DNA of 64,000 nt, taken from Acanthochromis polyacanthus (lineage: Eukaryota > Chordata > Actinopteri > Pomacentridae). The position numbers and the translations under genes are program-made. The stretch is taken from the NCBI RefSeq assembly GCF_021347895.1, contig NC_067114.1:30294373-30358372 (forward strand), read 5' to 3'. This document shows, piece after piece, positions 1-61,073 of the stretch (the stretch's first letter is position 1; every line of letters starts with the position of its first letter). Under the pieces are notes generated by a model. That model worked only from the letters and a program-made list of their open reading frames with translations. It ran no database searches and was not told the origin of the DNA.

Positions 1-3000
1 GGGATGATCTCACTAGTCGTAGGCTGAAAGACGGAGCTTCCGCGCCTTTTCACGCCAGACAGGGAGAATTAAAATGTGTGTGTTTCTCTGCCTGAGGAGC
101 CAGTCATTTCCCTCACTAATCTTGGGTGGAGACTTCATCTGTCTTCCATTTCACTGCTAATATCTGGTAATATTTTACTACATGACAATCATACTTTCAG
201 CAACTGCTAATCACATCCATGACAGTGTTTTTTTCTCTCCCACTTGTACACAAAGGACAATTCTGTGTGGCACAAGCACCCTGACTTCTTGTTTGGTCAG
301 ATTCATATGGATTTAAGTTTCTTTTATACTAATGTGAAGCTTCCATTCCTCATTGAAATCCATTTCCATCAGAAAATGGATTAAAGCATAGATGAGATAA
401 GGCACAATTCTGATTTAAAAGTACTTTTTTAAATTTTAAGTTTAACTTATGTAATAATAACTCATTAAGATGAGAACATCCTTTCTTTTGGCAAAAAAAC
501 AAACAACTTTTTGACTTGTTTTGTCACAATTTTGAGATTTTAGCATAATTTTCACCTAAAATGTCTTCATTTTGACTAATTTTGCTTTTCATCAAATCTA
601 TCATTTATCTTGTGAGACACTAAATGAATATAGCACCTCTTGTGAATATTGCTGTCTAAATCTATGCCCAAAGTTTATTCATGTAGTTGCTATTATTAGT
701 TTTACTCTTATATGTGTAGATGGTTGACCAAGCAGAGCAAAGCTTGTTTGGAGGGAATGTTTGGACCCATTCTTCTCATCATATTTCCGTAATGCCAGTC
801 ATCTGTGCTCACGGTTTGATTTGCTATTTAAGACTAGCATGTGAATTCAATGACCAACAAAACAAAAGAGCTCTCTCATGGTGGAAATCCCAGATCTGAT
901 TTACCAGCAAAATGTAATCAGCTGATCCATTACATGTCTGTTCTGCTACATAAATCTGTGAGATTGAAGAGAAAGTGATTACAAGATGTTTGTTTTCATT
1001 TTAGAATTTAGAGGTAAGCTGCACGGAATGCAGAAAATAAAAAGGCTAATTTCTATTCCAAAAAATCTGAGTTTGCTGCTTAAAATACACAAAAACAAGC
1101 AGACAGATTGGGAATAAACCCGTGATTATAGCCTCACATTTGCACTACCAATATGTAGTAACTTTTATTACTTTTTTGCAGAATGTGTTTGTGGAGATTT
1201 TTCCTCCTAATAATTCTGCATAGTTTGTTTAATCTCAGCAGATTAGATGCAGGAGACTTTGTGGCAGATGCATCATCACCTCAGCCTCTGCTCCTGTGTG
1301 GATCTGACATGAGACAGCCTCACCAGTGGAGTTATCGTTAGCGGCCATCATCAGTAAATACGTCCTTAATACCCTTTGGAATCAATTTCCTCCAACATGG
1401 CCAGCATGTAGAGGATCGATTTCATCTCAGAGTAAAATAATGTCTGGCAAAGAGGTGATGGTGGGCTGGTGGGGGGGGGCAGTGGAAGAGGTAGAGGGGT
1501 GCAGTGCTTTTGTCACATGTTAAAGTGGGTGCTTTGCATTCCCTGGGTGTATAATCACCTTCAGGACCATTCATTACCCTCGGAGCTGTGCCGCCACCGT
1601 GGCTGTCACCCGGGATGACAAACCGGTGGAGGGGTGGGGTGGTAGTGGTGGTGGAGGGGGGAGATGGGGTGCTCTCTCTCTCCAAAGGGGTGGGAAGACA
1701 GAGACGATGATGATAGATAGAAAGAAGAAAATGTGAGTGGAAGGGGGGTGTTGTGGTCGTACAGCCCAATCTGAAAGTTCTCTCTGGGCCACATGTGTAG
1801 CTGCAGAGGAGACGTGTGCACACGGACAGGCACACGGACGGAAAGATTGATGTTCCCGTAAAGCTGCGCTGCTATAGCCTGTGGCCCTGCAGCGTGGTGT
1901 CTTGGATTGTTGGCCTGTGTGTGTGTCTTTGCCGGGCGTCCACCTTGATTCATGCGTGGAAACAGTGACCGAAACGGATACAAGACTAATATCACGTCCC
2001 GTCTCTTCCACTGCCCCCCCCCCCCCCTCCGCCTTTGCAATTTCACCCTAATAGATCCAGAAATTGACCTCTCATATCCCAGAGGCACGTTATTACATTT
2101 CCCAAAGTCGTATTTTATCTGCCCCCCCCCTCCTTCCCTTGTCCCAATACCCCCATCCACCCCAACCTTTACACCCCATCTCACCCAGCCACCAACAGCA
2201 ACACGCCAATTAATGGGGTTGCTCACCCGGCGTTATAACTTAATAAACTTCGGGGGTAATAACTTTCTCGCTCTGCCCGGCAGCAGCAGCACCGGCACAA
2301 AGACTGAAGTGTAATCTTGTAGTTTATTCTGGATGGCCGCCCAGCACCAGGAACACAAAGAGAAATGTGTAGCTGGATGCCAGCATTAACTGGACGTGGT
2401 GTTTTGGAAGGAGTAGGATTCCACTGATGTTCACATGGCAGCCATTTTGAATGCATGCAGAGCCTGGGTCTCCCCTGCTGTTAAGACGGATAAATCATGC
2501 CGAAACTACATTTTTTCCTCGGATTCCTCGCTAAAGGGGGAATAAGACCTGAATTCAAGGAGCTCATGTCGACAGTTTAGTAAATCCCAGCCGCTATCAC
2601 AATCTGAAGCATCCTGCCTTCCAGCTGAGCTGCTGCTCTGAGCAACTGGCTTTCACAGTGCCCTCATTTGATCAGATTTACAAGTTTGGAGCTGGAAAGC
2701 ATTACACTTGTGGTGTTGACAAAAAACAACATTCTTTTAGGGAGGTTTCGCTGTTTGCCAGGACATATGAGGCACCGGCTTGTGTGCCTTCAGGATTCCC
2801 GAAACGCCAACTATCTTTCCGAAACTCCTCATCTGAAAAGAAAAAGGGGGGAAAGAAGCAAGGACTTTGAAAAACTCTGCCATGCTGTAATGTTTTGCAG
2901 GCTAGCAGCTCATAAAGTCCAAAGTTCTCGGTGGAATTTGGCCCCTGTTGAATACTACATTGTTAGGCCACTTATGTGAGGGGGTATGGAGCACAAAATA

Positions 3001-6000
3001 TGACTTTGGGACGACATAAAACCCAGTGGGGCTGACGATGCAGCTTAAAATGAGTCTGTAAAACATTTTCTTCCTCCTTCTCATGCCCCTTATGTGAGAT
3101 GAAAGATTTTTAGATTTTGAAATGTTTTGTAGGCAGTCGAGAAGTTTTAGTGTCACTGACAAAGCAAGGCCTTAGTGAAAACCTCATAGATGATCTAGAA
3201 CCTATTAGTGAGGTTTGGAGGTGCTTTGGACAGAGCATGGCTAACTTTTCTCCTCTGTTTCCACTCTTAATGCTAAGCTAACTGGCTCCTGGTTGTGGGA
3301 TAATCCTCTCATTATGCCCTCATCAAGAAAGCAAATAAGCGTATTATTTAAAATGTTAAACCACAGGAAGCAAGTGTGAGCAAATCATTCCAAACAGATA
3401 ATGGGTACTTTTATGACAACAGATGATTCTTCTATTGCAGCACAAAATAATTCATCCTAACAATAAAAATCTGCAACAGCTCTGAAGTGTAAATCTGTAT
3501 TTCCAAGCAGATTCCCTCATAAGCAGCAACCCTGAGGTGTCACTGAGGAACATGTATGGAAGTAATGGCAGCTCTCACGCAGAAATGCATGCACAGTTTG
3601 CACCTACACGGTTCAAAATGGCCGCCTGGTGAACAATAGAAGCAGCCTTTTCCTTTCTTTAGTCACTGGTTGGTGCAGCTCCCACTACCTGCCACACTAA
3701 CCCACTGCAGCACAGACTCATGGAAACAGACCACAGGAGAAAGTGCTGACCCTTTAGAAGAGATGAGGGATTTTCTTTTTTTTTTTTCATTTAGTTTTTG
3801 CTCATTTCCACAGACAGGCCTTCACGACCACCAGGCCAGACTGGGACACACAGTGTTACTGGTGGAAAGTCTAATAATTCAGACTGGGGCTGCTGGGCTC
3901 CGTCCAGCTCTTAACCAGCTCTCTGCTGATGGATAGCGCGCTCTGATGCTGTAATAAGGTGGCTGAGTGTGTGTGTGTGTGTGGCAGCCGTGCAGTCATA
4001 AAGTGTGTATATGTGAGCGTGTGTAGGGTTTGTAATTTGTGTTTCTTCTCCTGAAAAGGCCAGTATGGAGGTGGAAGTCTCCCTCTCTCTCACAGCAGAC
4101 GGATGGATCAGACTCCTCTGGCACATGTGAGATTTATCAGGCAGGATTAGTGCAGGGAAACACAGCCCGTTCACATCCAACATAATGAATATAGATATAT
4201 ACATTTTTTTTTCAGAAAAATCTAATGAATATCTTTCTAGGGAACGCTTTTCTGTCCCACCCAAAAAAATAAGTCAAGAAGCTTTTTTGGGAAAGAGCTT
4301 CGAGCGGAGCCAGAGCCGCCAACACGTGATGGATGAAATGTTGTTGTTAGTGCGAGTGATGATAGAAAAACAGAACAAACCCTTGTTATAGTGGCCGAAC
4401 CCTGCACGGCTTTATATCAACATGACTGCGACTCTTGACAGGTAGAATATTATTATTATTACGGAGTGCAAATGAACCAAACAGCCGCTCACATGCGACC
4501 GAGACTAGAGTAACACCAATCCAATGACTGTCCAATCAAATGCAGCTTTCAGTCATTTTAAATTAAAAAAAAAGGTTTGCATTAATTTATCAGAATAAAA
4601 ACAACGTAAGAACATCCTCTTCCCTTCACATGCAACGCGTAAAACCCTACACTCTAGGTGAAAAAAAAAATCTAAGTTTCACTCTTGTCCTCGTTCAGCT
4701 ACAGCTTGAAACTCCATCACCAGCCGCTGTGGGATTTCCATGAGCCTCCATGTAGATTTATACGCGCTTTAAGAGTCCAGTGTTCTCGTCCTGACCGTCC
4801 CTCCTTCAGATGGGAGTCCCGCTCAGCGCACTGAGTCCACGCTGCAGGCTGAGTTATGAGGCCTCTGCTCTATTGAGAACTAATCTAGCCTGCTCTGCTG
4901 CTCCGAGCCGCCCAGGTCAGTGATGGACGGCCCCGGCTCCTTTTTATGATTTTGATGATTTTTTTTAGAAGAAGACATACAGGAGACGTGTTCAGCTGAT
5001 GGAGCGAAACGTGTTGTTTGAGGACAGCTAATAATAGACTGCATTATCCTCATTATTATTGTTATCATGAGAGGAGAGTGAGGGTAAATGCGACACATGC
5101 ACTGCTCCTCTTCCTGAGAAATACGCGCACATGTGTCCAAACCCTAATCAAAGCAGAAGCAGAGGATAGTGCGTATCTGTGTCTCTCTGTCCACCCAGAA
5201 GCATTACCATATTATACGACTAGTTACCCCGACCTATAAAAGATAATCCGGCCTGTCCGGTGCAGCCCGGTGGAGCTCCGGAGCTCATCTTTCCACACCG
5301 TATTGACTGTTCATTCGTGCGTAAAGCTGCAGGATCAGGAAGCAGAGGGCCCGGCACGTTTCCACACCGAGCATACCGTGTAGCATTCCGCTCCTCAGAC
5401 ATGTTCACACTTTTAAATGGGACAGTTTGTTACAGCCTGACTGACAGCAGGAGCTTTAAAATGCGACGGAGCAGACAGAAGCACATGTGTGCCGGAGATA
5501 ATGAGAGCCCTATGATCTATAATGTACCTGCAGTTTAATAAAGAGCGAGAAAAAGACTTATTTAAAAGTAGGTGCTTTTCAGAGGAGACAGAAGTGCCCA
5601 TGTCCTGATTATCTGGAGGTTATCCAACCTGAACACCTTCGCTGGTGAAAATGAGAGATTAGATTATTTTTTGGATTTATTGGTTCTGCTCTAAACCGTC
5701 CGATCTACTTGCTTAAAGCTTTCCAGACACACCAGAATCGTTTGTCTTTAACAAGCATCTATAATAAATTGATAAGTTTTTCTTTTTAGATGAGAAGCTC
5801 TAAAGCAGCTTTATGTGTTTAACTGGGCTTCCAGCCAAGTGATTCAAACTAACCATAATGTCAGTCACTTTCAGACTGTCTTATGGAGGCAATAACATCA
5901 CCTCACACAGAAATACAAAATACAACAATGACCCCTACAGTTCTTCAGTTTCTGCTAAAATTATCTGAGGAGGTGGTCCAAATATGCTGAATTATTAAGC

Positions 6001-6343
6001 CTATTTTGGGTTCTTGTTTTATTACGTTTCACATCGTTATTTTATCCACTACTTGCAGGTTAATAAAAGAGTGTGTCACTCCAGGAAACTAAGGGGAACT
6101 ACACACAGCATTAGTGTCATTGCTTATCTGTTGTCTGTGTGCATCCTGTGCGTGTTTGCCAGTGAGCACCGCTAACACGGGGACGATACGAGCTAAATAT
6201 CACAGTAAACTTCGAGAGCAGAAGGTGGGGGCTCTCCGGCTCTTTGTTCTTGTTTTATGGCGGCATTAAAAGCATTTACAATCTCCCACTTCACGCTCTC
6301 TCTCTCCCTCTCCCGCGCCCTATTTCCTGCTTTAATAACTTAC
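1..6343 (-). other. hoxb9a: hoxb9a intron 1 (partial, runs off left edge)
   Basis: Sequence downstream of the hoxb9a exon 1 splice donor, whose GTAAGT lies at 6343-6338 on the minus strand. A Hox9 second exon should begin with an ANW-type hexapeptide and carry the homeobox. I looked on the minus strand for the recognition-helix codons (WFQNRR) and for the MYLTRD segment and found neither, so exon 2 appears to lie beyond position 1. The interval holds no recognisable protein-coding exon. It contains ordinary AT-rich sequence, a G/C-tract-rich block at about 1530-2330, a short TG run near 3966-3983 and a GC-richer block near 5225-5480 with a TATAAAAG on the plus strand. The intron assignment is inferred from the donor. 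That exon 2 is missing is observed by eye only. Confidence 0.75.
1530..2330. promoter_or_regulatory. candidate conserved non-coding block inside hoxb9a intron
   Basis: This block differs from its AT-rich surroundings. It is richer in G and C, carries several G/C homopolymer tracts, and contains homeodomain-type core motifs such as CCAATTAATGG (about 2205-2215) and TTAATAAACTT (about 2240-2250). It has long frames open in several phases on both strands, but their composition (Pro/His/Thr-rich) matches no protein family I know, so I do not call a gene. An enhancer or other conserved non-coding element within the intron is an inference. Only comparison with other fish HoxBa clusters would establish it. 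Confidence 0.3.
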
Positions 6344-6956
6344 TTTGATCCGGGCCGTCTTTGTCCTCACTGCCTTCACAAATGTCCTTATTTTCCTCGA
6401 ACCCTGCTCCCGGGATGGCGGTGGGATGGTGGCTCAGCTCTCGCGCCGCCGTGGACGTCGACTCCAGGATGTACGTGGTGGTCTCGTGTTGGTGCTGTCC
6501 GCCGATTTTGGGTGGGATCTCCCCTCCGAGATGTCCGAGCTGCGGCTCCAGCTTGACCAGCCCCGTTTGGCCCTGCCCTGGGACGGACTCGGAGCCGCGC
6601 GGGGCGCAGTCCAGCCACGAGCGTATGTACCGTGTGTCCGCGGCGGGCACGTGCTGGGCTGGGATGTACGGGTGGTAGACAGCGGGGAGGCCGCTGGCAC
6701 CGTGGTGCGGGCTGAACGGGCTCCAGGACGAGGAGAAGACCGGAGGCTTGGGCTGGAAGCTGCAGGATGGATAGGACTCCGGGTGGGGATGCTCCGCCTG
6801 GGCAGCGCCGCCGGGCAGCCTCCCGCCCGCGGCCGCTGCGGAGCTGGAACCGGAGTACTGGACGCTGGGGAAGCGAGCCGGGGCTGAGAGTTCATCGCTC
6901 TCGTGACTTATGATGGAGTCCACGTAATAGTTGCTCAAAGTCCCAGAAATGGACAT
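6344..6956 (-). CDS. hoxb9a: Hoxb9a homeobox protein, exon 1 (partial gene)
   Basis: First coding exon of a Hox9 transcription factor, which binds DNA with PBX/TALE partners in the nucleus and patterns trunk and tail. The ATG is at 6956-6954. The first 19 residues (MSISGTLSNYYVDSIISHE) are the Hoxb9-type N-terminus. Further Hoxb9 hallmarks follow: a YPSCSFQPK block near residues 62-70, an LPAVYHPYI block near 90-98, a TRYIRSWL block near 108-115, and CEGSEDKDGPDQ just before the exon end. A Ser/Ala/Gly-rich stretch (about residues 35-53) makes the exon longer than in mammals (204 codons plus one base). The donor CAAA|GTAAGT at 6344/6343 leaves phase 1, as in other Hox9 genes, where the next codon is Thr. 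The hexapeptide and homeodomain belong to exon 2, which is not in the window. The frame is intact. Paralogue assignment rests on N-terminal identity plus linkage to mir-196 and a Hox13 gene. Confidence 0.95.
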
Positions 6957-7560
6957 TCTCGGACATTATCTGCGAAACGCCGCAAGTTCACTAAAAGGAG
7001 AAGAGAGACATTACTGGATTTTCCTCTCTTTCCTTCTCTCTCTCTTTTTCGTCTTCTTCTCTTCTGTTCTTTGCGAGCTCGCCCCCTCCCTTCCTCTCTC
7101 TCTCTCTTTCTCTCTCTCTCCTCTAGCCCCTTCCTTCCAAACAACTTGCTCACTATAGCGAAACAAAGTGCTACAGCCTTCAGCCTCGCACGGTGCGCGG
7201 GGGTTTGTCGGGCTGTGAGAGGCGCAAACTGATTGGCCGGACTTTTTCTTCGAGCCTGAAAAAGCGTCAATGGAGCGTAAATCAATCCTGCACACGCGCC
7301 CCCTCCCTATCCTCTCTCTCTCTCTGCCTCTCTCTCTCCGTGTCTCTCTCTCTAATAGATTGCCTCCCTCTAAATAAATTGTCTTGTTTATATGCAATAT
7401 GCAAAATGAACACTTCGTGCGTATATCTAGTCTGCGTATCTATGGCTGCTGTCAGGCTGGAATTATAGAAAACCGTTAAATTATGCGTCGTCTGGACACT
7501 ACGCATGAAATGCAAAGTGGAGACAATGGCTGACAAATAAGTGCCGCCATTATTTTTATG
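6957..7560 (-). promoter_or_regulatory. hoxb9a 5' UTR and proximal promoter
   Basis: Region immediately upstream of the hoxb9a ATG. It contains two long pyrimidine (plus strand) / GA (minus strand) tracts at about 7020-7130 and 7309-7352. Between them, at about 7229-7240, lies an inverted CCAAT box (GATTGGCC on plus, GGCCAATC on minus) roughly 275 bases upstream of the ATG. A TCAATGGAGCGTAAATCAATC segment (about 7266-7286) has PBX/HOX-like half sites. No clear TATA box is placed on the minus strand. The transcription start is not determined from sequence. The frames open here in several phases are products of the CT/GA repeats. Confidence 0.5.
7022..7352. repeat. CT/GA-rich simple-sequence tracts upstream of hoxb9a
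   Basis: Two blocks of imperfect (CT)n, about 7022-7130 and 7309-7352, separated by ordinary GC-richer sequence. On the sense strand of hoxb9a they read (GA)n, a composition associated with GAGA-type factor binding and with flexible or H-form DNA in promoters. Function here is inference. Confidence 0.7.
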
Positions 7561-20817: not shown

Positions 20818-20908
20818 GCAGCTGGTGTGACTCAGGCAGTTTCAGGTTCCTGTGATCTTTAGCATCCAGCCCAACAACTTGAAACTACCTACATCACACA
20901 GCTCCTGG
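20818..20908 (-). ncRNA. mir196: mir-196 microRNA precursor hairpin
   Basis: The mature 5p strand at 20891-20870 (minus) starts TAGGTAGTTTCAAGTTGTTG, which is the miR-196 family sequence with seed AGGTAGT. Compared with miR-196a it has A instead of T at position 12, matching the form I recall as zebrafish miR-196b. The 3p arm lies at 20852-20831. Its GAAACTGCCT pairs without interruption with AGGTAGTTTC of the 5p arm, and the stem continues outward through AGCTGTGTGA / TCACACCAGCT. The loop is about 17 bases. miR-196 genes lie between Hox groups 9 and 10 in vertebrates, exactly the position seen here, on the same strand as the Hox genes. The known role is repression of Hox mRNAs (Hoxb8 is the classic target), which sharpens posterior identity. 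The primary transcript ends are not visible. Confidence 0.96.
20870..20891 (-). ncRNA. mir196: mature miR-196-5p
   Basis: A 22-base mature strand beginning at 20891 on the minus strand. The seed at positions 2-8 is AGGTAGT. The rest of the strand follows the miR-196 family consensus apart from position 12. Confidence 0.93.
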
Positions 20909-24900: not shown

Positions 24901-27900
24901 CTGTCTTGAACCATTAACCCAGATCAGTCAGGAAACAGGACAATAGTTATTTACTGAGTCTATAAAGAGAAATGCAGAGACCACAGGAGCCATTTACTGC
25001 AGCTCCATCAGTGCATCTGATCCTGATAATAAAGCCTGATGTCACCGTTAACTTGTACTATAGAAAGCTCTGATGCTTCATTCAGAACTCAAATGCAGTC
25101 CTTGTAGATGCAACAGAGCTGCTTCTGACATTAAACTAATATTGTTAGTAGTAATACTGCTGAGCTGTTGGTAGCACTAATGCTAATGCAATAACGTGCT
25201 GTTTTATCATATAATTATAGGATACACATGATTAAATAATGCAGTATTTGCATTATACTCAACAACTTAACTTCTATTTGATCCACAAATGTAGTCAATC
25301 TAGCTTAGACTAAAACAATAACTCTTCAAATGATTGTAAGATAAAGTCTAAATTATTTTCTCCAGTTTTAAGCAATGATGCCGGTCCAACTTATTGTACT
25401 TGTGTTGTGTCAAGTAATTTCTCAGACTTGGATCTGACTTAATTTACTGAAAATGAGCCAGCTAGTTTTACTGAATTAAAACTACACCAGTAAATAAAGT
25501 TGATCCAACCCAAGTAAATGAAACTGGTCCAACAGAGCTGCTTAATGCTGAAAGAAAACCATTTATCAGGCTGGAAACCCTCTCCATATTTGTTTAAAGT
25601 TCATTCAAGTGATTATTTTTTGAGTGCTCAAGAATCAGATATAAAATGGAAAATTAAAGGTAATGACAAAAACTTGTCAGTCATAAACTTTACATGTACT
25701 GTTTGAGTTTTACAGTTATTAAAAGACAACAGCATCTTTTATCTGTGTGACCAGCGGAACATAAGGTGCCATCTGTACGTCCAGCTCAGAGGAACGGGAA
25801 GTGGAAGTCTTCAAAATGCAGAAATAGAAATTAGAAAGCTCTCACAGGAAATATCCCCTCAGTAGAAGCGCTAACACGTTTCCCACACAGCAGAGTGAGT
25901 CAGAAAATCCTCCAAAAAGACACAACCACAAACTAGTGGAATTGTGAATCACTCCTTTGGCACAAACATGAAATTAATGGATTTGGATCCTTCTGCTGGA
26001 GTTACTGGGACTCTTAATTTACTGCATCACCTCTGCTGTTACCACAACAGCAGCAGGACTACTACTTACTGCTTTGTTATTGGTTGTGTTTTTACAATGA
26101 TTCCACACATGAATAAATAAAAACTGAAGTCCTGGAAATGCTTAGCTTTAGTTCATATAGGAATAATTTATAAATCCTGTTGCTTGTGTCTCATGGCTGA
26201 ACTTTCTCTGACGGGTTTATTTTAGGTAAAATTACAGCTGCTAATTTCTACTCGGATGACAAACACAGAGGCTTTCTGTAGGCATAATTACAGCATGTCA
26301 GGATTATGGATTTCCAGTGTGTTAGAGGCAGAAACACCTCACATTATCACTGCTTTTAAAACACCATAGCAGTGCAGCCAGCAGCTTATTTTAAGAATTT
26401 AATGAGACAAATTAAAATGACTAAATTATTGACATTTACACTTTCTTATGTTTTCTGTTTTTGCCTCAGGCTTCTGAATGCACTTTACTGAATAATGTAT
26501 CGGGATAAAAACAGGTGAAAGCTCAAACGCTGTTAGTGGAAATTTCTCTTGAATGTTCTTTCAGGGATGTTGTTCTCAGGCTGGGGACAGTGGGGCCGTA
26601 CTGCTGGAAATACAGTGCAGGCTGCTTCCACTAGGAATTAACTTTTAGTACATTCAAGGCCAGCAGTATAATAAATAAAAGGGGTGGTTTCAGCAAAAGT
26701 GGAAAGAACCAAAAATATTTTATTCTGAATATATTAGAAGTGCATGACTAATGAGTTTTATCATTAATAATGTGCTTTTAATTGTTTTGTGATAATATTA
26801 TTGACTAAAATGCTGAAAGGCCGTCTGTTTATTGCAGCATTTTTTATATTAAATAAACATGTTCCATTTTAAATGATGTAAATGTTCCAGGACAGACGGT
26901 GAATTATCTGAAATATGTTTTAATTTAAAAAAAGCAGTGCAGATAATGTGTTCCTCTAACTCACGGAGGTCCCTGCTGGATTTTAAAAGTGTCCACGATT
27001 CTAAAACAGTCAGTTCATCTTAAAACACAGTTCCACAACTGGTGTCAAAAAGTTGGAATAAATTTTAGGATAGAGAACAGGAGAAATAATATTATTTAAC
27101 AAATGCACGTCATTAGACTGTTAGGTTCATTGTTCTCATTAATAAATCCTGATTATATGGCCTGGATTCCCTGATATCCTTCAGTTTTGAATGAATAGTA
27201 AATAAAATAATGATTTCAAACCAGCAGTCATCACACTGTAAACCATACGCGGCCTTTTCACTGAACAACCTCCTGCTTTACGCACAGAAAAATAAAACAC
27301 ACACTCACCATCAGATGAGGACAGACCACTGAGCCCACGCTGCCTGGATAGGAAATAAAAAATACATAAATACAACTGCATCAAAAAGCACATTTGATCT
27401 GTGTTTAGATGAGGAAAGTGAAAAAAAAAACACCCAGAGAATTAGAGAAAAGCAGCGCGAGCAGCCTCCACCCCGCTGCTGTATCAGCTGTACTTCCGGC
27501 TCCTTCTCCGGTTCATGTGCTCGACCTTGGATCGTCCAGGAGGCCAACGCACCGCCGTCCTCAGCCAGAGCTCGGCTTAGATGTGTCATTTTTCATTTTC
27601 ACAATTTCGGATTTGTACCAAAAAAAGAACAGAAAAAAATCTCCAGTATTCAGGCATCAGCCCGAGCACCTTTCCATCTGATTTTTACTCACAGTGATGT
27701 CCAGTTTAACTGTCCTCACTCCACTCTGTCCCTTCCGTAGTAAACACAACGTCACACATAAACAGTGGATTCTTTCATTTGTCGCCTTGTCTCTGGCCCT
27801 CTCACTGAAGCAGCTGCAGCTCGTTCTATTCCTGTAATCTGTTAGTGTGTCCAGTGCGTAAAAGCTTGGTGAGACTGCAGCAACTCAAAGCAGACGGCGC

Positions 27901-28021
27901 ACCTTCATCTTCAGCTACAGCTCCTCTCCTCCACATCCTCTCTGCGTCTTCCTGCTCCGTGTGGAAGGATCTGGAAGGAGATCCTGGTCTGGATCACTGG
28001 ATGCTGGAGGAGGCCATGCCG

Positions 28022-28242
28022 CTGCGGCGCTTCTTTCCTCATCCTCAGGTTCTGCAGCTGGATCATCACCTGGATGTCGGTCAGGTCGACGCTCTTGTTG
28101 ATCTCCAGGCGGCGCTGTCGGCTCAGGTACAGGTTGAACTCCTTTTCTTGGGCTGCTCCGGAGCCTCCCTGCTCCGTGGGAGAACTGCGCTGCTTCCTAT
28201 GGGCTCTGGCCGACAACGAGGAGTCGAGTGCCGGGCAGCCTT
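28022..28242 (-). pseudogene. hoxb10a: degenerate Hox10-type homeobox exon (hoxb10a relic)
   Basis: A minus-strand frame aligns along its length with the second exon of Hox10 genes. It holds LSARAHRKQR where Hox10 has LTAKSGRKKR, then P-T, EKEF, LYLSRQRRLEINKSVDLTD where Hox10 has MYLTRERRLEISKSVHLTD, and QVMIQLQNLRMR where Hox10 has QVKIWFQNRRMK. The residues that define a working homeodomain are lost: Trp48 is Gln, Phe49 is Leu and Arg52 is Leu, although Asn51 remains. There is also a net two-codon insertion before EKEF and a two-codon deletion in FLFNMYL. The conserved KLKKMNRENR tail is gone. A potential acceptor (CTCTGCAG) survives at 28250-28243. No stop interrupts the frame. I found no Hox10 first exon upstream. 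The position between mir-196 and hoxb13a is where hoxb10a belongs. Most likely a pseudogene; a fast-evolving, non-DNA-binding product cannot be excluded. Confidence 0.8.
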
Positions 28243-28624
28243 CTGCAGAGACCCGGAGACTCATCTGGAGAGGAAACACGGCTGATAAACTAGATCCTTT
28301 TATTTTACACATTCTAAAATAAATAACAGAAAGCAATGACTATACCAGACAGCTTTTTATTTTACTGGACAAAATATTATTTCCTTTAAATTTAATTTTG
28401 TGGGGAAGACAAATAATTTAAATGATTATCCTGGATAAATAGTAATTCAAACACTCATACTATGAGCAATAAATATGAGAAACTGAACAGTAATTAATGT
28501 CGTTGTTAGGTGTTATTTACACGCAGGAAGTTATTTTTAAAAAGTCAGAAATGTCTTTCTATTTTGGAGCGTTCTTTCACTCAAAAAGACGAAGACCGAG
28601 TTTGAGTTCATTTTCATCTTGTCT

Positions 28625-28732
<108 letters not shown>

Positions 28733-28859
28733 GAAGCTGTGTTAATCAGTATTGTTCTGTCCACACTGCAACAAACGCCGTAAACAGCCTGATAAATAAA
28801 TGAAACATTAGACAAGATCATTAAATAAAACAGAAGAGAATCAGCCTGGAACAATCAGC

Positions 28860-29420
28860 TAGCTGAAGGGAGATTTTATTTTTAAGAATGCTGTAATTTT
28901 AGCGCGTCCTGGAGTGAAAGAAGGCAGCTTTTACGCACGGCCTGTATACGGTGGAAGACAGAAAATCCTCCCATTCCCTCTTTTTGTGGCAGCAACATAT
29001 CTCCTTTCAGCTTGTCTCCGCTTTTATCATTTGAGATCAGTTTCATGCATCCACACGTCGCCATATTTAGCCAGCAAACTCTCTGGGCCTCTTTGTCTTC
29101 CACCAACACGCTCCCACACCGTGAGGAGCAGCGGGGATTAAACCTGAACTCTCGCTTCTTTCTGCGCTCAGACTCGTTTTAGACCCAAAGCTATGGTTTA
29201 ATAATTATGATTTACGGTGACATCGCTTCCATCCCACGATTTCTGCGCGGGGATCTCTGGTTTCTCTCTCAGCAGCGGAGATCTTAAGGTCAAATCAGAG
29301 AATTCATAAATAACTGCACCGCGCGGCAGGAAAGATCACACGCACGTGGTTCATTTTAAGGTTTAAATCCCATTTTATGGAGCTCCCTTTGAGCCCGGAC
29401 AGATAAAATCAGAACGTATT
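28860..29420. promoter_or_regulatory. candidate conserved non-coding block upstream of the Hox10 relic
   Basis: This sequence is less AT-rich than its neighbours. It contains CATAAATAACTG and CCCATTTTATGGAGCTCC segments (about 29305-29385) with TTTATGG, the core bound by CDX and posterior Hox proteins, and a TTTACGCAC motif at about 28930-28938. It lies 0.7-1.2 kb upstream of the relic exon in the direction of transcription. It could hold the remains of hoxb10a regulatory or intron sequence, or an enhancer serving neighbours. I could not find a Hox10 first-exon reading frame in it. Inference only. Confidence 0.3.
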
Positions 29421-30013
29421 TGTACAGTTCTATGTTGCATATTATGGGATGAAAGCAGAGCTGGAAGAAAAAAACAAAAAGCTAACTGTATTTGCTTTAC
29501 TTTTTATGCACTTGAACAAACGCTTTTCTTGTTTTGTACATATTTCAGAAAATTTAAAATGTTCCGGCAATAATTTAAGAAAATTAATTTATTACAATAT
29601 AAGCTTTTAAAATACACCAAAGTACATGTGCTTCACTCAAATGTCAAATACTGAAATAAATATTTTTCTTTAAAAAGCCTAAACGCTGTGCTGTAATGCA
29701 GATTTAGTTTTTTTTTCTTTCATTTATGCTAAATTAGCCAGGAAGCATATTCAATGTTTTTTTAAAATTGTGTCAAATTGCACATGTAGTTTCGTTTTTA
29801 TGTTTAAAAATTTGGAACTGAATGTGTAAAGGTAAACACAGTGCAGCCTTTAATTCTGAGAAATATAAAACATAATATTTGTCAGTTCAGTGAGAAAAAA
29901 AAGCCTGAAAGGAAAGCAAAGAATCCTGATTTATTGGAAATGGAATCTGTTAAAGAAATAAAAATGGTTTATGTAACATAAATATGGCCAAGTTTGCAGC
30001 TGCTGAATAGATA

Positions 30014-30143
<130 letters not shown>

Positions 30144-30879
30144 TTAAATTGAAGTTTAGGCTTCTACATTTATTTGACTTTTGATGATTAATTCACTGAC
30201 TTCTCAGCTTTCTGTTATTTCTATTTCACTTTAAAATTCTTGGGTTTCTTATTTTTCGGTGTTTCGTGTCTGAATCCCCCTGAATGTTTTCCTCAGAGGG
30301 ACAAACATGGCTGTGTTTGCTTTGTGTCCTGAGGCTTGACTTTCTGCTACACTTTGCTCTCTGGGCTCCTCCTGTCCGTCTGCTGGACTCGGTGTAGAAG
30401 GAAGAAGACCATTCCATCCTGGCAGAGCAATAAATTCATTTCGGGGAGAGATGCGGTGTGGCAAAATGAGTCTCTTTGTCTTTAAGAGCCCGCCATAAAA
30501 CCAAATAAAGACAGAGCGAGGCAGACAGGAAGAAGAGACAGAGGAGTCACCTTGTCTCGCCTCCAGACCAAACAGCCTCCCCCCTCTGGCTGCTGCCATG
30601 GCCGAGCTCCCCGACCCGCCGTCTGCCGCTCCTTTCCTGTTTGTGCCACACCGTCCACCTCCAGCCGCTGTTCCCTGAGTCTCCTCCCCCTTTCTGTTTT
30701 CATTTTCCCTTCTTCCACACTCCTGCCTCTTCCTTTATATCATCCACTTTTCATTTTTCTCTTTATCAACCCCTGCACCACCAACACACACATTTATAAT
30801 CTTCCCTTTCTGTCACTTTTTCCTCTCCACCTCTCGTACCTTGTAGCTTCTCTCTGCTGGTTCCTCTCCCTCCACCAGG

Positions 30880-31720
30880 CCGCTCTCCTCCTCCTCCTCC
30901 TCCTCTCCTAGCGGCTGTGTTTGGACCAGAACCGACTGACATCTTCCTTCAACCGACTGCCTTCATCCTGGGAAATCCAGCGGCATGTGAGGTATGAGAT
31001 GACGGGATGGATCCAGAGAGAGAAGAAAAGGAGGACTAGTTGGATGAGTTTGGTCGCAGCAGTGATGGGGAGCAGACTGAAGTCCCGAACCGAACCTGCA
31101 GAAGCATCCCCGGTCCGGCTGCTGACACCGGGCCGGTCCGTACCTGAGGAGGGAGGGCTCCTTTTAGCTGGAATGCTGCGGACGGTGAACACGTGCGCTC
31201 ACGGACAGCTGGGGACGCGTTTTCTGCGCGTCTTCGCTCCATCATCGCTCCATCATCACGCCTCGGTGCAGGATCGGATCACGTGTCCACCTGGCGCCTG
31301 GCTGCTGACACCGGGGTGACATCCAGGCTGTGTAGCTCCAGCTGCCGTCGCTCCTCTCTGCGCGCAACGGTTCTGGAGGTATTTTGGAGCAACTGGAGCG
31401 CACCGCCGGTTCGACCTGTTTGGAGCTGTTGGTCCATGAAAGAGTTAATGTTCACACACCTTCTGACATGGCTGTGGGAACATCAGCAGGAGGGGGTGGG
31501 GGCATACTTTGGGTTGATGAGGGCAGAGACACAGTTTGGCCGGAATCGCTTCCTGTTAGGCGGCCAATGGCAGTGTGAGGTTCACGGGCAGGCCACGCCC
31601 CCAGCGCTCTGACGTGTCCGTCTTCTCCTATTTATTTATCAGTAATGGCACTGCGGGCTCCATTAAAACGCGCTCTGTTCATAATTCACCGCTTCTTCAA
31701 ATGAGAACCACGCGTGTTTG
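30880..31720. promoter_or_regulatory. CpG-rich, promoter-like block
   Basis: CpG dinucleotides are clearly denser here (for example around 31080-31380) than in the surrounding tens of kilobases. The right part contains an ordered set of promoter-type motifs: GGCCAATGG (about 31562-31570, CCAAT box), CCACGCCCCC (about 31593-31602, GC box), TGACGT (about 31611-31616, CRE core), TATTTATTTATC (31629-31640) and CCATTAAAACGCGC (31661-31674). Frames are open on both strands but none resembles Hox10 exon 1 or another family. Possible readings are a promoter for a non-coding transcript, a leftover hoxb10a promoter, or a Hox-cluster enhancer. I cannot choose between them. Confidence 0.4.
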
Positions 31721-34189
31721 AGCAGCAGGAGGCACAGACAGATTCAAGCTGCATCCAATTACAGAGCAGCTCAGAGCAGCAGCCCGCTGTGGAATTTCCC
31801 CTCCGATTAGGCCCAGCATCGCTCTCTGATAGTGGATGCTCTGTGAAGTATTCTAATGTTCCTGAGGAATGCATGCTGGAAGGCCGAGGATGTCATAAGA
31901 GGAGAAAAATGAGGAGATCCTGGTGCAGCAGCAGGAGTTTAGCTTTGTTTTTTTTAAACTCTTGGAAACGTGAAGCAGCATTTGGAGCTGAGCAACGAGC
32001 AAAAAATCTTTCAAGTCCTTACTATGAAATGACACCACGTTTAAAGATACTGTGAGACGTTAATTCCTGTGTTTGAACCGATTAAAGATTGATTTATTCA
32101 GCTTTTGATTGTGAAAACAGCAGTTATGTCAGTGCTAGTGGAAAGCAAACTATAAATATGTTTTTCTTATTTGGTGAAAACAATTATGCAATTTTTGTTT
32201 TCTGCAGCACCAGTTTCCAACATAAATCATCTCAGAATAAAGTCAACATTTTACAATATTATAGGAATAAATGTGGTCATTCCCAGAACAAGCATGAACA
32301 GAAAACAAATTAAATCTGTCCTGTAATTTAGAGAAAAAAATCAGTGTTCAGTATTAAAGTTCAGGAATAATAGCCTCACAAACCAGTGTACAGTGTTAGC
32401 TAATGTTTTTTTTTTTTTTTTTTAAAGAGCATTATAGGATAGAAGTTCTATCTTTATAGATGGAAACATAAATTGTAATCAAAGCTGAGGACAAACACTG
32501 TTTAGACCTACAAAAATGTCTTGTCAGAGCTGCTGGCTGCTTGAAGAAACAGGGCAGTCTTTACTGTCAGTATTTAAGGCAAAGTATGTATTTTTTTATT
32601 AGTTTATTCAGAATTTATTGCAGTCACAACTTATTTTAGACTCTTAAACTACAAAATATCAGACTGTGGCTGCAAAGAATTACAGTGTAAATAAATATCT
32701 TAATACATTTAAAAGGTTCTGATAACAATCCAATAGAAAAGACAGAAGAAAATGAGCGCATGCGCACATGAGGGCACTGATGGTTAAACTCAATGACGTG
32801 TGTGTATATATATATAAAATATGTACGTTGTGTTGAGGATGTCTGCATGCAGTTCACCTTTTCTGCCTGCAGGTGTCGTTGTTGTCCCTGACACTCCTAC
32901 TCTGCTACAGAGCTTGAAAATAATTTTAAGATAATCTCTTTTTTTAGTTTAAAGTTGAAACATAGATGCAAAAAGCTGTTTTTGTGCAATAATTGTTCGA
33001 TTTTAGTGATCAGTGAGCAAACAAACTCAATAAAAATAATCAGTTTGGTGGATTTCATCCACAAGTTCAAATGAAAAGAGGCTGTACATATGTTTAAGAT
33101 CAGACGTCTTCCTTATCGGTGCACATAAAAATACAGCACAATTCTGTCCATGTTTCTGTGTGTATTTGCAACGTGGGCTCTCAGGTTTTTGCAGGCCTGA
33201 TTAAAAATGTTTTATTTGGAAGGTGAAACGTTTTGAGAGAACAGGAAGGTTTTTATTCATTTTTCATAACTGAGACTGTTGCTGTTTTTGCTATAAATGT
33301 AGAACTTTATCCAGCATGTAGTGCTCATATACAAGCACAAATCATCCAGGATTAACAGCACCATTATTACATTTAAGTCCATGCATCTTTGTGTTTCCAC
33401 TTTCCTCTTTATTTACATCCAGCCACCGCACTGCTTTATGTGTAAAATAGTAACTACAAAATCACTTTCCCTTCATTTATATTTGGACTTTTCCTCTGAT
33501 TTTATTAAGCACCAGAGTACAGAAGTCGCTCCATTGCCAAAAACCAGCTGTGCACACTTTGAGTTGCGCAGTTATTATATTCTGATTCTTTCCTATGAAT
33601 AAACTGTAACGGAAAATATGAACAGATCTGGGAGAAGTTGTAGCTACAGTCAACAACCAGCCATGCAGATGTAAGCAGGTCTGGATCACTGTTTGACTTC
33701 TAACAGCAAGGTTCATAACAACAAAGCTGCTACAACTTTTTTTTGAGCTCTTAAAGTCTCCAAAACTCCAAAATATCAGTATTTAAATGAACCGTCGTGA
33801 AACCAACCGGCAACATGAAACCCCACATGGATGTAAAAACAGTCTTTGTTCGGACTGTGGATGAGACACATGTGGCGTCCAGATCCAACTTTAATCTTTC
33901 TGCTCAGTAATGATCTCTCTGCTTACAGTCAGAGCGTTAGCAGAAAGTTAGCTCATCACTAAAGTGGATGAGCTTCATCCAGAGGGTTAAACTCACCGTG
34001 TTTGGAGACCGTGTGGCGGGATGACGCATGACGCACGGCGCTGATCGTGATGGAGGATTATTCGTCTTTTTTATTCCTTCTGTGTGTCTCCAGGCTTTGT
34101 TTGAGCTCTAATGTCAGTCAGTCAGTCCGTCCGTCCTCAGATCCGGGACTGAGGGGGTCTGGTGTGTCGGGCCCTGCTGTAAAACCCTT
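31721..34189. other. intergenic, no gene recognised
   Basis: AT-rich non-coding DNA with a poly-T run at about 32406-32423 and a short TA run near 32804-32818. Short frames here have no family resemblance. Confidence 0.55.
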
Positions 34190-55776: not shown

Positions 55777-57356
55777 AATGAAATGCAGCTTTACAGTGAT
55801 CAGAATGCAGCTTCTTCTTTAATGATCTATTTATTCCAAATTAATATTTCCCTGATAGAAGCCATAAAGCAGACTGATCATACATGCAGCTTTTCTTTTC
55901 TATTACAGGTAATTAATGGTCCGTTTCCTGGCCTCCTCTAAGCACAAAGAGCCGCTGCTGACCGTTTCATTTTCATCTGCTTCACCGTCAACTTTAATTT
56001 CACCTCAAGTTTCACATCAGTGCCGCAGATCAGCCCGTAAAAGACGTTTAATGTTTTCAGCAAATCTTAATATTCTATATTCTGAGGCACATATGCTGTA
56101 AAAACCCCATGCTCACATGCAGAGCTCCTCACACCCAGACCTGTCTGAGATCTCTCATTTCTCTTCAAACTGCAGAAGGCCTGACAGTTCTAGCATTTTT
56201 ATTTTATTTCGTCGAGAACAAAATGTGCAAAATGTGCACTCTACGTTAATGTGCAAAGTGGCATTTATGTTCTCATCTTCACTTTTAAATCCAGCTTCAG
56301 ATCGAATTTTAATTCAGGCCATGAAGAATGTGTGTTCGATGTGGAATAGCTGTTTAAAGTTCTGTCCTTATGTTTTGGCCATTGAGAGCAGGATGTCAGG
56401 CCTCATACAGATCAAATCTGCTTTTAGGACCCCACATTCATGGAGATCAGCTTTCACTGCACCACAACAACGCAAATGACCTCCTAATATGATTCCCTTC
56501 ATTGGGACATTTCTGAACGCAGAGTCTTCAAATGAAAACCTTCCGTAACTCGAACAGTAAAGCGTTTTTCAGTGTGTTTTGACGCAGGATTTGGAGCTGT
56601 TTGTTCCATTTGCAGGAAGGAAATGAACGGACAGGCCTGACAAACGGCTCTCAGTGCAAAACTGTGCGCATTTTGGATCAAGAAACATGTTTCAGAACGC
56701 CGAGAAACATCAGAGGATGATGCGTAAAAATGCGTCTAAAGGCGATTTGTAAAAATAAACAAACAAAAAAATGTTTAATACACCAAGTTCAAATTAGAAA
56801 TCTTTTGACTCCGTGATTCAGTGCTCAGCATTTAGCCTATACTGTCACAAAACAGTGTTCCGTTTACTAATATGATCACCAGTCTGAGCTTTAAATCACT
56901 CTAATCCGTTTTATTAGTGTGATTATTTTAGTTGAAGTCAGGCTGTTTAAATGAGATGAACACGTTCTGTTTCAGCTGACAAGTGTTTCCTGTTGGGCCA
57001 CGATCCAGCCTCCCCGTGAAGTAGGCCATAAAACAAATCCAAATAATTAAATATACCGAACAAGTCCGCAGAACCCCTCGTTTTTCTGACGTCAGACGGA
57101 ATTTTTAAACCGTTTCCAAACGAAACCTCGGGGTTCTTCAACGTTTACGCACGGCTTTTTGGATGCCGGAATGCTGACGTGATTTTGAGATAAAGTCTGT
57201 GCGCTTTGCCTCGATCATCCAGAATGCGTCCGCTAAGCTCCAGAGCCGTGCACATGAAGCTCACGTCACTCACTTGTCGCCTTGACCGTGAACGCGCCGC
57301 AGGAGCGGATCGATGGTGGAGGACGGGAACCTGCTGATGAGAAAGGAGCAGGGCGT
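55136..57356. other. intergenic, no gene recognised
   Basis: Mostly AT-rich non-coding DNA with a TCC-rich run at about 55549-55580 and a (CA)n run at 55736-55772. A GC-richer, CpG-containing unique stretch occupies about 57050-57350, roughly 1.6 kb past the hoxb13a stop codon. No exon is recognised. Confidence 0.5.
55736..55772. repeat. (AC)n microsatellite
   Basis: About 18 AC units. Confidence 0.95.
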
Positions 57357-57367
57357 GCGTGTGTGTG

Positions 57368-57449
<82 letters not shown>
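57357..57449. repeat. (GT)n microsatellite with G-run end
   Basis: About 46 GT units with a GC interruption near 57373, ending in a run of eight G. Confidence 0.96.
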
Positions 57450-57451
<2 letters not shown>

Positions 57452-57565
57452 GGGGGGTGTTGGGGTGTCTATCAGACGTCCTGCTGTCATAAAATGTTCG
57501 CAGGAGACTGGAGACTGAACCTATAGCTGGTCACATGACTCTCAAGGTCAAGGGCTTCTTCTGTC

Positions 57566-57567
<2 letters not shown>

Positions 57568-57615
<48 letters not shown>
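57568..57615. repeat. (CA)n microsatellite
   Basis: About 24 CA units, about 120 bases from the preceding GT tract and in the opposite sense, so the two could pair as an inverted repeat. Confidence 0.96.
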
Positions 57616-57619
<4 letters not shown>

Positions 57620-58861
57620 GGCTGAAAGGATTTGCACAGACAATAGCACAATTTAAAGCCTGTTCAATTCTGCAGGAGCTGCTGAGATGTTTGCGTAAAA
57701 ACACATTTCAAATAATTCTAATATTCTTTCTGATTACTTTTGAGAAGCATTATAGCGGTAATGTTAGTAGTTTTATAATTATATATATATATGTATATGT
57801 GTGTGTGTGTATTATTTCTAAATGAGCCTCTTAAATATCACGATTTTATTCTGTTTGTTTTTGTTAAAATCAAAGCTAACATTAATAAGAAACTCTCAGC
57901 TCGAAATTTTACATCATACGGTATTAAAAAATAATAAACACCGTCGGTCTTGCTGCAAGAAAAAGTCTTTTAATTATGTAGATTTGAGAGGAAACAAAAT
58001 TTAATTCTGCGTCAATAAAGTTTAAATATTTACTGCTCTAATTTATAAAACTGAATTAACTGAAGTCTATTTTTCGTCTCTTCTCTATGATGGAAATCTG
58101 TTATGCAGACTTAAAACATGTAAATTATTGTGAGACTCACTGAGAATTTGCTGATTTAAGTTGACATTTTCTGTCTGTCCTGTAAAATCTTTCAGCTCAG
58201 TGCTAACATTTCTGAGTGCAGTAAAATAAGAGTCTGGTTTTAATGGTGGAGCTTCGGTTCTCAGGCAGGACTGTGGAGTGATAGAGAGCTGTGGCCTGGT
58301 TCTCTCATGAATTCACGGTCCTATAAACACGTTGAATCTTCACAGCCATTCTGGATTCCTCTGCTGTTTGTCCAGATATCAGCTTTCAGTCTTTGATATG
58401 CGCTAAATGCGGGTTTGCTTGCACATTTTACGGCGTCATTCAGTGAAGGGACAAATTACGCACAAAAAATCAGACCTGCTGCTTTAAATAGAATGTTGAT
58501 GATTTTTTTAAAAAACATATAAGACCTACTGGAGACTAAATCGGGATTAAAAGAATTTATTAGGTGTTGCACTATATTCTGAGTACTGGTTTACAGCGAT
58601 ATAAACATATGGACAGCATAACAGAGTGTTTTCTTCTACAGGCTACTGAACACGGACACGGACAGTCAGAGACACAGAGAGACAGGACAAGAAGCAGGCA
58701 GGAAAGTGCTGTATTTACAGGACGCCTCTGAGCAGCAGCTTTATCAGAGGACTTTGGTTCTTTTCTTTAGTCTTATTTTCCTTCACTTGTCTTCGTTTTC
58801 TTCCTTTAGTTGACGCACACGAACACACGCACAGTCCGTCAGGAGTACCACGTCGAGTTGC

Positions 58862-58971: not shown

Positions 58972-59219
58972 CTACGGTACGCTGCTCTTCACTTTGGCCA
59001 CGAACTTCTTCTCCTTCACCCTCCGGTTCTGGAACCAGATGGTGATCTGACGCTCCGACAGGTTGGTCACCGCCGAGATCTTCCTCCTCTTGTCCTTGGT
59101 GATGAACTTGTTGGCTCCGTATTCTTTCTCCAGCTCCTTCAGCTGGACTTTGGTGTACGGTATCCGCTTCTTCCTGCCGCGGCGGAAAGGCGAGCCGTCG
59201 TGCTGGTGCGCGACCACAT
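58972..59219 (-). CDS. hoxb13a: Hoxb13a homeobox protein, exon 2 (homeobox)
   Basis: Second coding exon of a Hox13 (Abdominal-B class) transcription factor. The acceptor is TTTGTCAG at 59227-59220, and the exon opens with AT, completing an Asp codon begun in exon 1 and reading [19 protein letters not shown]. The 60-residue homeodomain (59178-58999) starts [10 protein letters not shown] and contains [31 protein letters not shown] and [11 protein letters not shown]. Trp48, Phe49, Asn51 and Arg53 are all present. [11 protein letters not shown] with [11 protein letters not shown] is diagnostic of group 13. The protein ends KVKSSVP, and the stop TAG is at 58974-58972. Known roles of Hox13 are terminal axial identity and arrest of axis extension. 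The exon is intact, arguing for a functional gene. Confidence 0.97.

Positions 59220-61073
<1,854 letters not shown>

Follow-up and report, generated by a model that had tools for sequence, protein, structure and literature searches.

Decayed Hox genes have been described from teleost clusters before: a remnant of hoxa7a in pipefish, hoxb7a in a cichlid, and pseudogenes of hoxa7a, hoxb7a and hoxc1a in fugu (PMC5168715, PMC2080641, PMC5016917). As for hoxb10a, one source lists Tetraodon, fugu and medaka as lacking it (PMC7057633), another reports its absence from the percomorph common ancestor (PMC5168715), and HoxB10 is reported lost in mammals (PMC3038165). A teleost microRNA can also outlive its host protein, as reported for miR-499 in medaka, which persists without MYH14 and remains expressed without its host gene (PMC3716903).

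The window, by which we mean the whole 64-kb stretch of DNA analysed here, covers the 5' portion of a teleost HoxBa-type cluster, and its Hox genes all lie on the minus strand. At minus-strand positions 28216-28004 it holds what is probably the relic of hoxb10a exon 2, a unitary pseudogene still in its original slot. The mammalian HoxB cluster carries mir-196a-1; there, as here, mir-196 is retained beside a lost Hox10, with the difference that no relic exon is claimed for mammals. The sequence is like hoxb10a of zebrafish and other teleosts in its slot between hoxb13a and hoxb9a beside mir-196, in its strand and in its Hox10 exon-2 residues (judged against Hoxd10a and HOXA10). In contrast, zebrafish hoxb10a is reported intact (PMC6173838), whereas the relic is without core residues of the homeodomain, the tail and a recognisable exon 1. 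It resembles the decayed genes of pipefish, cichlid and fugu as another case of Hox decay within a teleost cluster, but the pipefish hoxa7a remnant is reported to keep exon 1 sequence and to have lost its homeobox exon, the reverse of the hoxb10a relic, which retains a homeobox and for which we found no exon 1. We found no description of a hoxb10a relic in the accessible open-licence literature, which most subscription journals fall outside. The hoxb10a relic is ordinary in kind and unusual in its readability, and a readable homeobox fossil in the hoxb10a slot makes the loss datable by comparison of relatives.

Cluster layout and affinity of the exon

The features that frame and make up the locus are as follows.

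60310..61011, minus strand: hoxb13a exon 1 frame (HoxA13_N, 91 bits)
58972..59262, minus strand: hoxb13a exon 2 with an intact homeodomain, the upstream neighbour (homeodomain, 69.3 bits)
28004..28216, minus strand: degenerate Hox10 homeobox exon 2, the probable hoxb10a relic (HMM, tblastn and frameshift-aware alignment; overlaps the initially annotated 28022-28242)
28040..28138, minus strand: best-kept core of the relic, 33 codons FNLYL..NLRM (23 of 33 residues identical to fish Hoxd10a; GC3 32/33)
20824..20900, minus strand: mir-196 hairpin, intact (70.1 bits against a gathering score of 55.4)
6291..6965, minus strand: hoxb9a exon 1 frame, the downstream neighbour (Hox9_act, 179.8 bits)

The gap between hoxb13a and hoxb9a spans 52 kb and houses both the mir-196 hairpin and the hoxb10a relic. 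The hairpin lies 7.1 kb downstream of the relic on the same strand and contains TAGGTAGTTTCAAGTTGTTGGG, and a mir-196 hairpin bearing this sequence is presumably mir-196b by name. The corresponding gap is reported to be 63 kb in a cichlid and large in stickleback also, and to be "normal" in pufferfishes, medaka and zebrafish (PMC2080641); we infer that the gene layout of the window is percomorph-like. A WFQNRR-type homeobox exon 2 of hoxb9a was not seen downstream of exon 1 (positions 1-6291), and this exon probably lies outside the window edge.

The initial annotation had read the sequence as a decayed Hox10 exon 2 in its ancestral slot, and both parts of that reading held up. The relic lies between hoxb13a and mir-196 on the Hox strand, as is the case for hoxb10a, and mir-196, hoxb9a exon 1 and both hoxb13a exons are all on the minus strand. 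As to identity, the minus frame displays the motifs RKQR, EKEF and NLYLSRQRRLEINKSVDLTDIQVMIQLQNLRM, and a Hox10 exon-2 HMM built from 86 of 120 fetched proteins (those bearing names are HoxD10) matches the minus frame 27914-28339 with 51.1 bits (E 1.7e-14). In the HMM listing the sole frame above the relic is that of hoxb13a (73.1 bits), all remaining frames among the matches listed score 6.2 bits or less, and the same HMM found no intact hox10 homeobox in the 64-kb window. With tblastn, 108 of 121 queries (the 120 fetched proteins plus HOXA10) matched the relic at E values from 3e-12 to 0.72; in frameshift-aware alignment it scores 133, compared with 23-41 for 20 block shuffles. The top phmmer match among solved structures is Hox-A9 (7.6e-7).

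When Hox7, 9, 10, 11, 12 and 13 are compared, the relic is closest to Hox10. Local scores are 127 and 122 for the two Hox10 references, which are Hoxd10a and HOXA10 and not Hoxb10a itself, followed by Hox9 (102), Hox11 (91), Hox7 (85), Hox12 (82) and the Hoxb13a of the window (59). Over the 33-residue core there are 23 and 22 identities to Hox10 versus 9 to 17 for the other groups (the HOXA10, Hox11, Hox12 and Hox7 sequences came from outside the fetched set). At the nucleotide level the exon forms a sharp GC-rich patch (61-62%) next to DNA of 29-30% GC.

Residue losses, reading frame and age of decay

The recognition helix of the relic has Gln48, Leu49, Asn51, Leu52 and Arg53 in place of the usual Trp48-Phe49-x-Asn51-Arg52-Arg53. 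Loss of Trp48, Phe49 and Arg52 had been noted at the outset; alignment with 106 proteins confirmed it and added the loss of Arg43 and Lys46. Trp48 and Phe49 are part of the homeodomain hydrophobic core. Met24, Thr27, Asn39, Arg43, Lys46, Trp48, Phe49, Arg52 and Lys55 are invariant in 106 of the 120 proteins and changed in the relic, and the ungapped relic retains 21 of the 47 invariant columns; helix-1 columns are invariant here because the 106 reference rows were chosen by a helix-1 motif, and one row (P0031) is Hox9-like. Within the 33-codon core the altered residues are 24, 27, 29, 35, 39, 43, 46, 48, 49 and 52, and residue 55, directly behind the core, is altered too. Ile47, Gln50, Asn51, Arg53 and Met54 are still present. 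The annotated loss of the C-terminal KLKKM was likewise borne out, the Hox10 tail KLKKMxRENRIREL being missing from the relic alignment, and the frame extends 36 codons past homeodomain position 60. The Pfam homeodomain model gives the relic 16.7 bits, under its curated cut-off of 22.9. We infer that production of a Hox protein from the hoxb10a locus has ceased and that the exon is very probably without protein function.

The minus frame at 27911-28339 is open over 142 codons, with no stop inside the homeodomain, and this openness had been called unusual for a pseudogene. That the frame is open stands; that it is unusual does not. We simulated neutral drift of the Hox10 core until 10, or 5, of its 33 residues had changed (18 settings of 1500 runs each), and across settings the 33-codon core was still open in 49.5-79.9% of runs. 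Since neutral runs mostly or often keep the frame open, the open frame is unremarkable. Across much of the relic, four of the six frames run open for 93-158 codons.

The initial annotation had further proposed two compensating indels, of plus two and minus two codons. These keep EKEF in register and are a fair alternative, but at frameshift penalties of at least 10 the best alignment of the relic has neither gap nor frameshift. With the penalty set to 8, an alignment that loses 2 bases at 28036 scores equally well and restores KK, and such a loss could be the cause of the missing C-terminal KLKKM. Lowering the penalty to 6 adds two more shifts in helix 1, and at 4 there are six altogether. The acceptor that had been placed at 28243 is one of two sites recognised by consensus only.

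28243..28284, minus strand: acceptor-like sites TTTCCTCTCCAG (end at 28265) and CTCTGCAG (end at 28243)

The second of these does end where it had been placed, but the acceptor scan preferred TTTCCTCTCCAG (first exon base 28264) together with another site whose first exon base is 28313.

Base composition at third codon positions bears on the age of the decay. In the core, 32 of 33 codons end in G or C while GC2 is 0.21; GC3 of hoxb13a exon 2 is 0.86. With ten neutral changes, at most one A/T third base was seen in 0.1-0.8% of simulated runs at an ancestral GC3 of 0.86, in 4-12% at 0.97 and in 7-21% at 1.0. With five post-loss changes, the corresponding figures are 1-3%, 19-34% and 38-57%. Most changes therefore predate the end of coding, or else GC3 was already extremely high in the ancestral exon. 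The core GC3 is a hint that little drift has elapsed, one whose strength depends on the ancestral GC3 and on the changes native to hoxb10a, and if anything it points to a gene that died late or to a protein still retained.

The region upstream of the relic and rival readings

A Hox10 exon 1 with its N-terminal motifs gave no match above chance by tblastn, HMM or frameshift-aware alignment. The queries were HoxD10-type proteins and HOXA10, not Hoxb10a, and such queries could overlook a b-type exon 1 that has diverged. In the frameshift-aware alignment over 28300-32200, three queries scored 40, 44 and 58 on the minus strand and 39, 42 and 56 on the plus strand, and the maxima of 12 shuffles for each query were 56, 49 and 63. 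Two exon-1-type matches at chance level, one at 40035-39982 (10 queries, E 0.54-0.96) and one at 38908-38726 (3 queries, E 0.89-0.90, with stops), were taken as chance because their order is wrong for a single gene.

Upstream of the relic, and hence also of the mir-196 hairpin, there is a further feature.

30741..31840, no strand assigned: orphan CpG island, a candidate surviving promoter/first-exon island of hoxb10a (strict CpG criterion, 58 CpG)

Five CpG-island criteria were applied, and the strictest (500 bases, GC 0.55, ratio 0.65) gives four islands in the window. Three overlap exons, namely hoxb9a exon 1 and the two exons of hoxb13a. The remaining one is the orphan, isolated 2.5 kb upstream of the relic and similar in length to those that accompany live Hox exons. 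Looser criteria yielded 11 islands (500/0.50/0.60), 8 (300/0.55/0.65), 16 (200/0.55/0.65) and 22 (200/0.50/0.60), several of them away from Hox exons. One example is the CpG-rich stretch at 56926-57665 (500/0.50/0.60), which lies below hoxb13a exon 2 and adjoins a dinucleotide repeat. The orphan island carries ATTGG boxes at 31759 and 31568 and a GC-type box at 31601. Three minus-strand donor-like sites fall within 1.2 kb at the island, the gap average being about one per kb, and a donor-like CAG/GTACGG lies inside it at 31144. The window holds no repeat copy of the island, and none of the eight ORF frames around island and relic has a Pfam family at 0.1.

Could the exon still be translated? 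A retained, non-canonical derivative would be a short protein that has lost the core of its recognition helix and, if working, would act without classical DNA binding. Such a protein would account for the 142 open codons and for the coding-like pattern of the core (GC3 32/33 with GC2 0.21); an ATG that immediately follows the acceptor-like site at 28265 opens 117 codons, and the donor-like site at 31144 would also suit it. We nevertheless consider this reading quite improbable: an open frame is to be expected under neutral drift, the hydrophobic core lacks Trp48 and Phe49, and no exon 1 was recognised. Protein searches point the same way, the 142-codon frame having no relative at E of 0.01 or below in a set of 294 similarly long candidates that share words with it, and a chimera query for longer proteins having none at E of 10 or below among 15 candidates. 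In the same protein database a human HOXD10 query retrieved 6515 homeobox-type relatives, and among the 120 of these that were listed none is named Hoxb10a, those with names being nearly all HoxD10 and several being nameless. These negatives are weak because the search needs shared exact 5-residue words.

We also think it unlikely that the relic was kept as a non-coding element, an enhancer or Polycomb target in which the homeobox would be conserved as DNA sequence. The GC-rich patch of 61-62% beside DNA of 29-30% GC and the nearby CpG island would fit such an element, but the live Hox exons of the window are likewise GC-rich, so descent alone accounts for the patch, and a long footprint-free stretch is reported from this gap in cichlid and stickleback (PMC2080641). 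A chance match, or a piece of a repeat or of some other homeobox gene carried in from elsewhere, would suit the score under the Pfam curated cut-off and is extremely improbable given E values of 3e-12 and 1.7e-14 to Hox10, a strand and slot correct for hoxb10a, and the lack of a second copy in the window or of any other Pfam family. On the HMM E value and the lack of another copy in the window, we rejected a chance or repeat origin of the relic.

A possible promoter for mir-196

CpG-rich sequence loses its CpGs when it is methylated in the germ line. The CpG richness of the orphan island therefore suggests that this stretch is still kept unmethylated and promoter-like. Going by position and CpG content alone, we tentatively raise the possibility, doubtful as it is, that the hoxb10a promoter outlived its protein and that the island may feed mir-196. 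The ancestral promoter at this 5' island would then still be active after the loss of the protein, transcription from the old hoxb10a start would run along the same strand towards mir-196, and a non-coding precursor of mir-196 would begin at the island. Under this proposal the island would persist because transcription from the old promoter continues.

In a pan-cancer survey, miR-196a/HOXC10 and miR-196b/HOXA10 are reported as the most coregulated miRNA-host pairs, by readthrough (PMC8471046), and it is from this readthrough, together with the miR-499 precedent, that we propose the hoxb10a start site as feeding mir-196. The likeness to miR-499 is a candidate one; miR-499 is intronic and its expression has been demonstrated (PMC3716903), whereas the mir-196 case here is known from sequence alone. 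Readthrough to mir-196 is not assured, because 12 AATAAA/ATTAAA signals intervene on the minus strand between the relic and the hairpin, and the orphan island possibly serves something else.

Medaka (PMC2080641) and Gulf pipefish (PMC5168715) are reported to lack the mir-196 of this cluster. If the promoter proposal is true, island and relic should be gone where mir-196 is lacking, as in these two fishes, and present where it is kept. A live promoter at the island would explain how a Hox10-side start site and mir-196 persist without a Hox10 protein, and would provide a parallel for the mammalian HoxB cluster. The orphan island and mir-196 are the part of the locus that deserves experiment.

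An Rfam search of 27500-32500 returned a lone match of 21.4 bits, below its gathering score of 65 and overlapping a (GT)n repeat, which we rejected. Between the relic exon and the island lie two perfect (AC)n/(GT)n runs, at 28626-28729 (52 units) and 30017-30140 (62 units).
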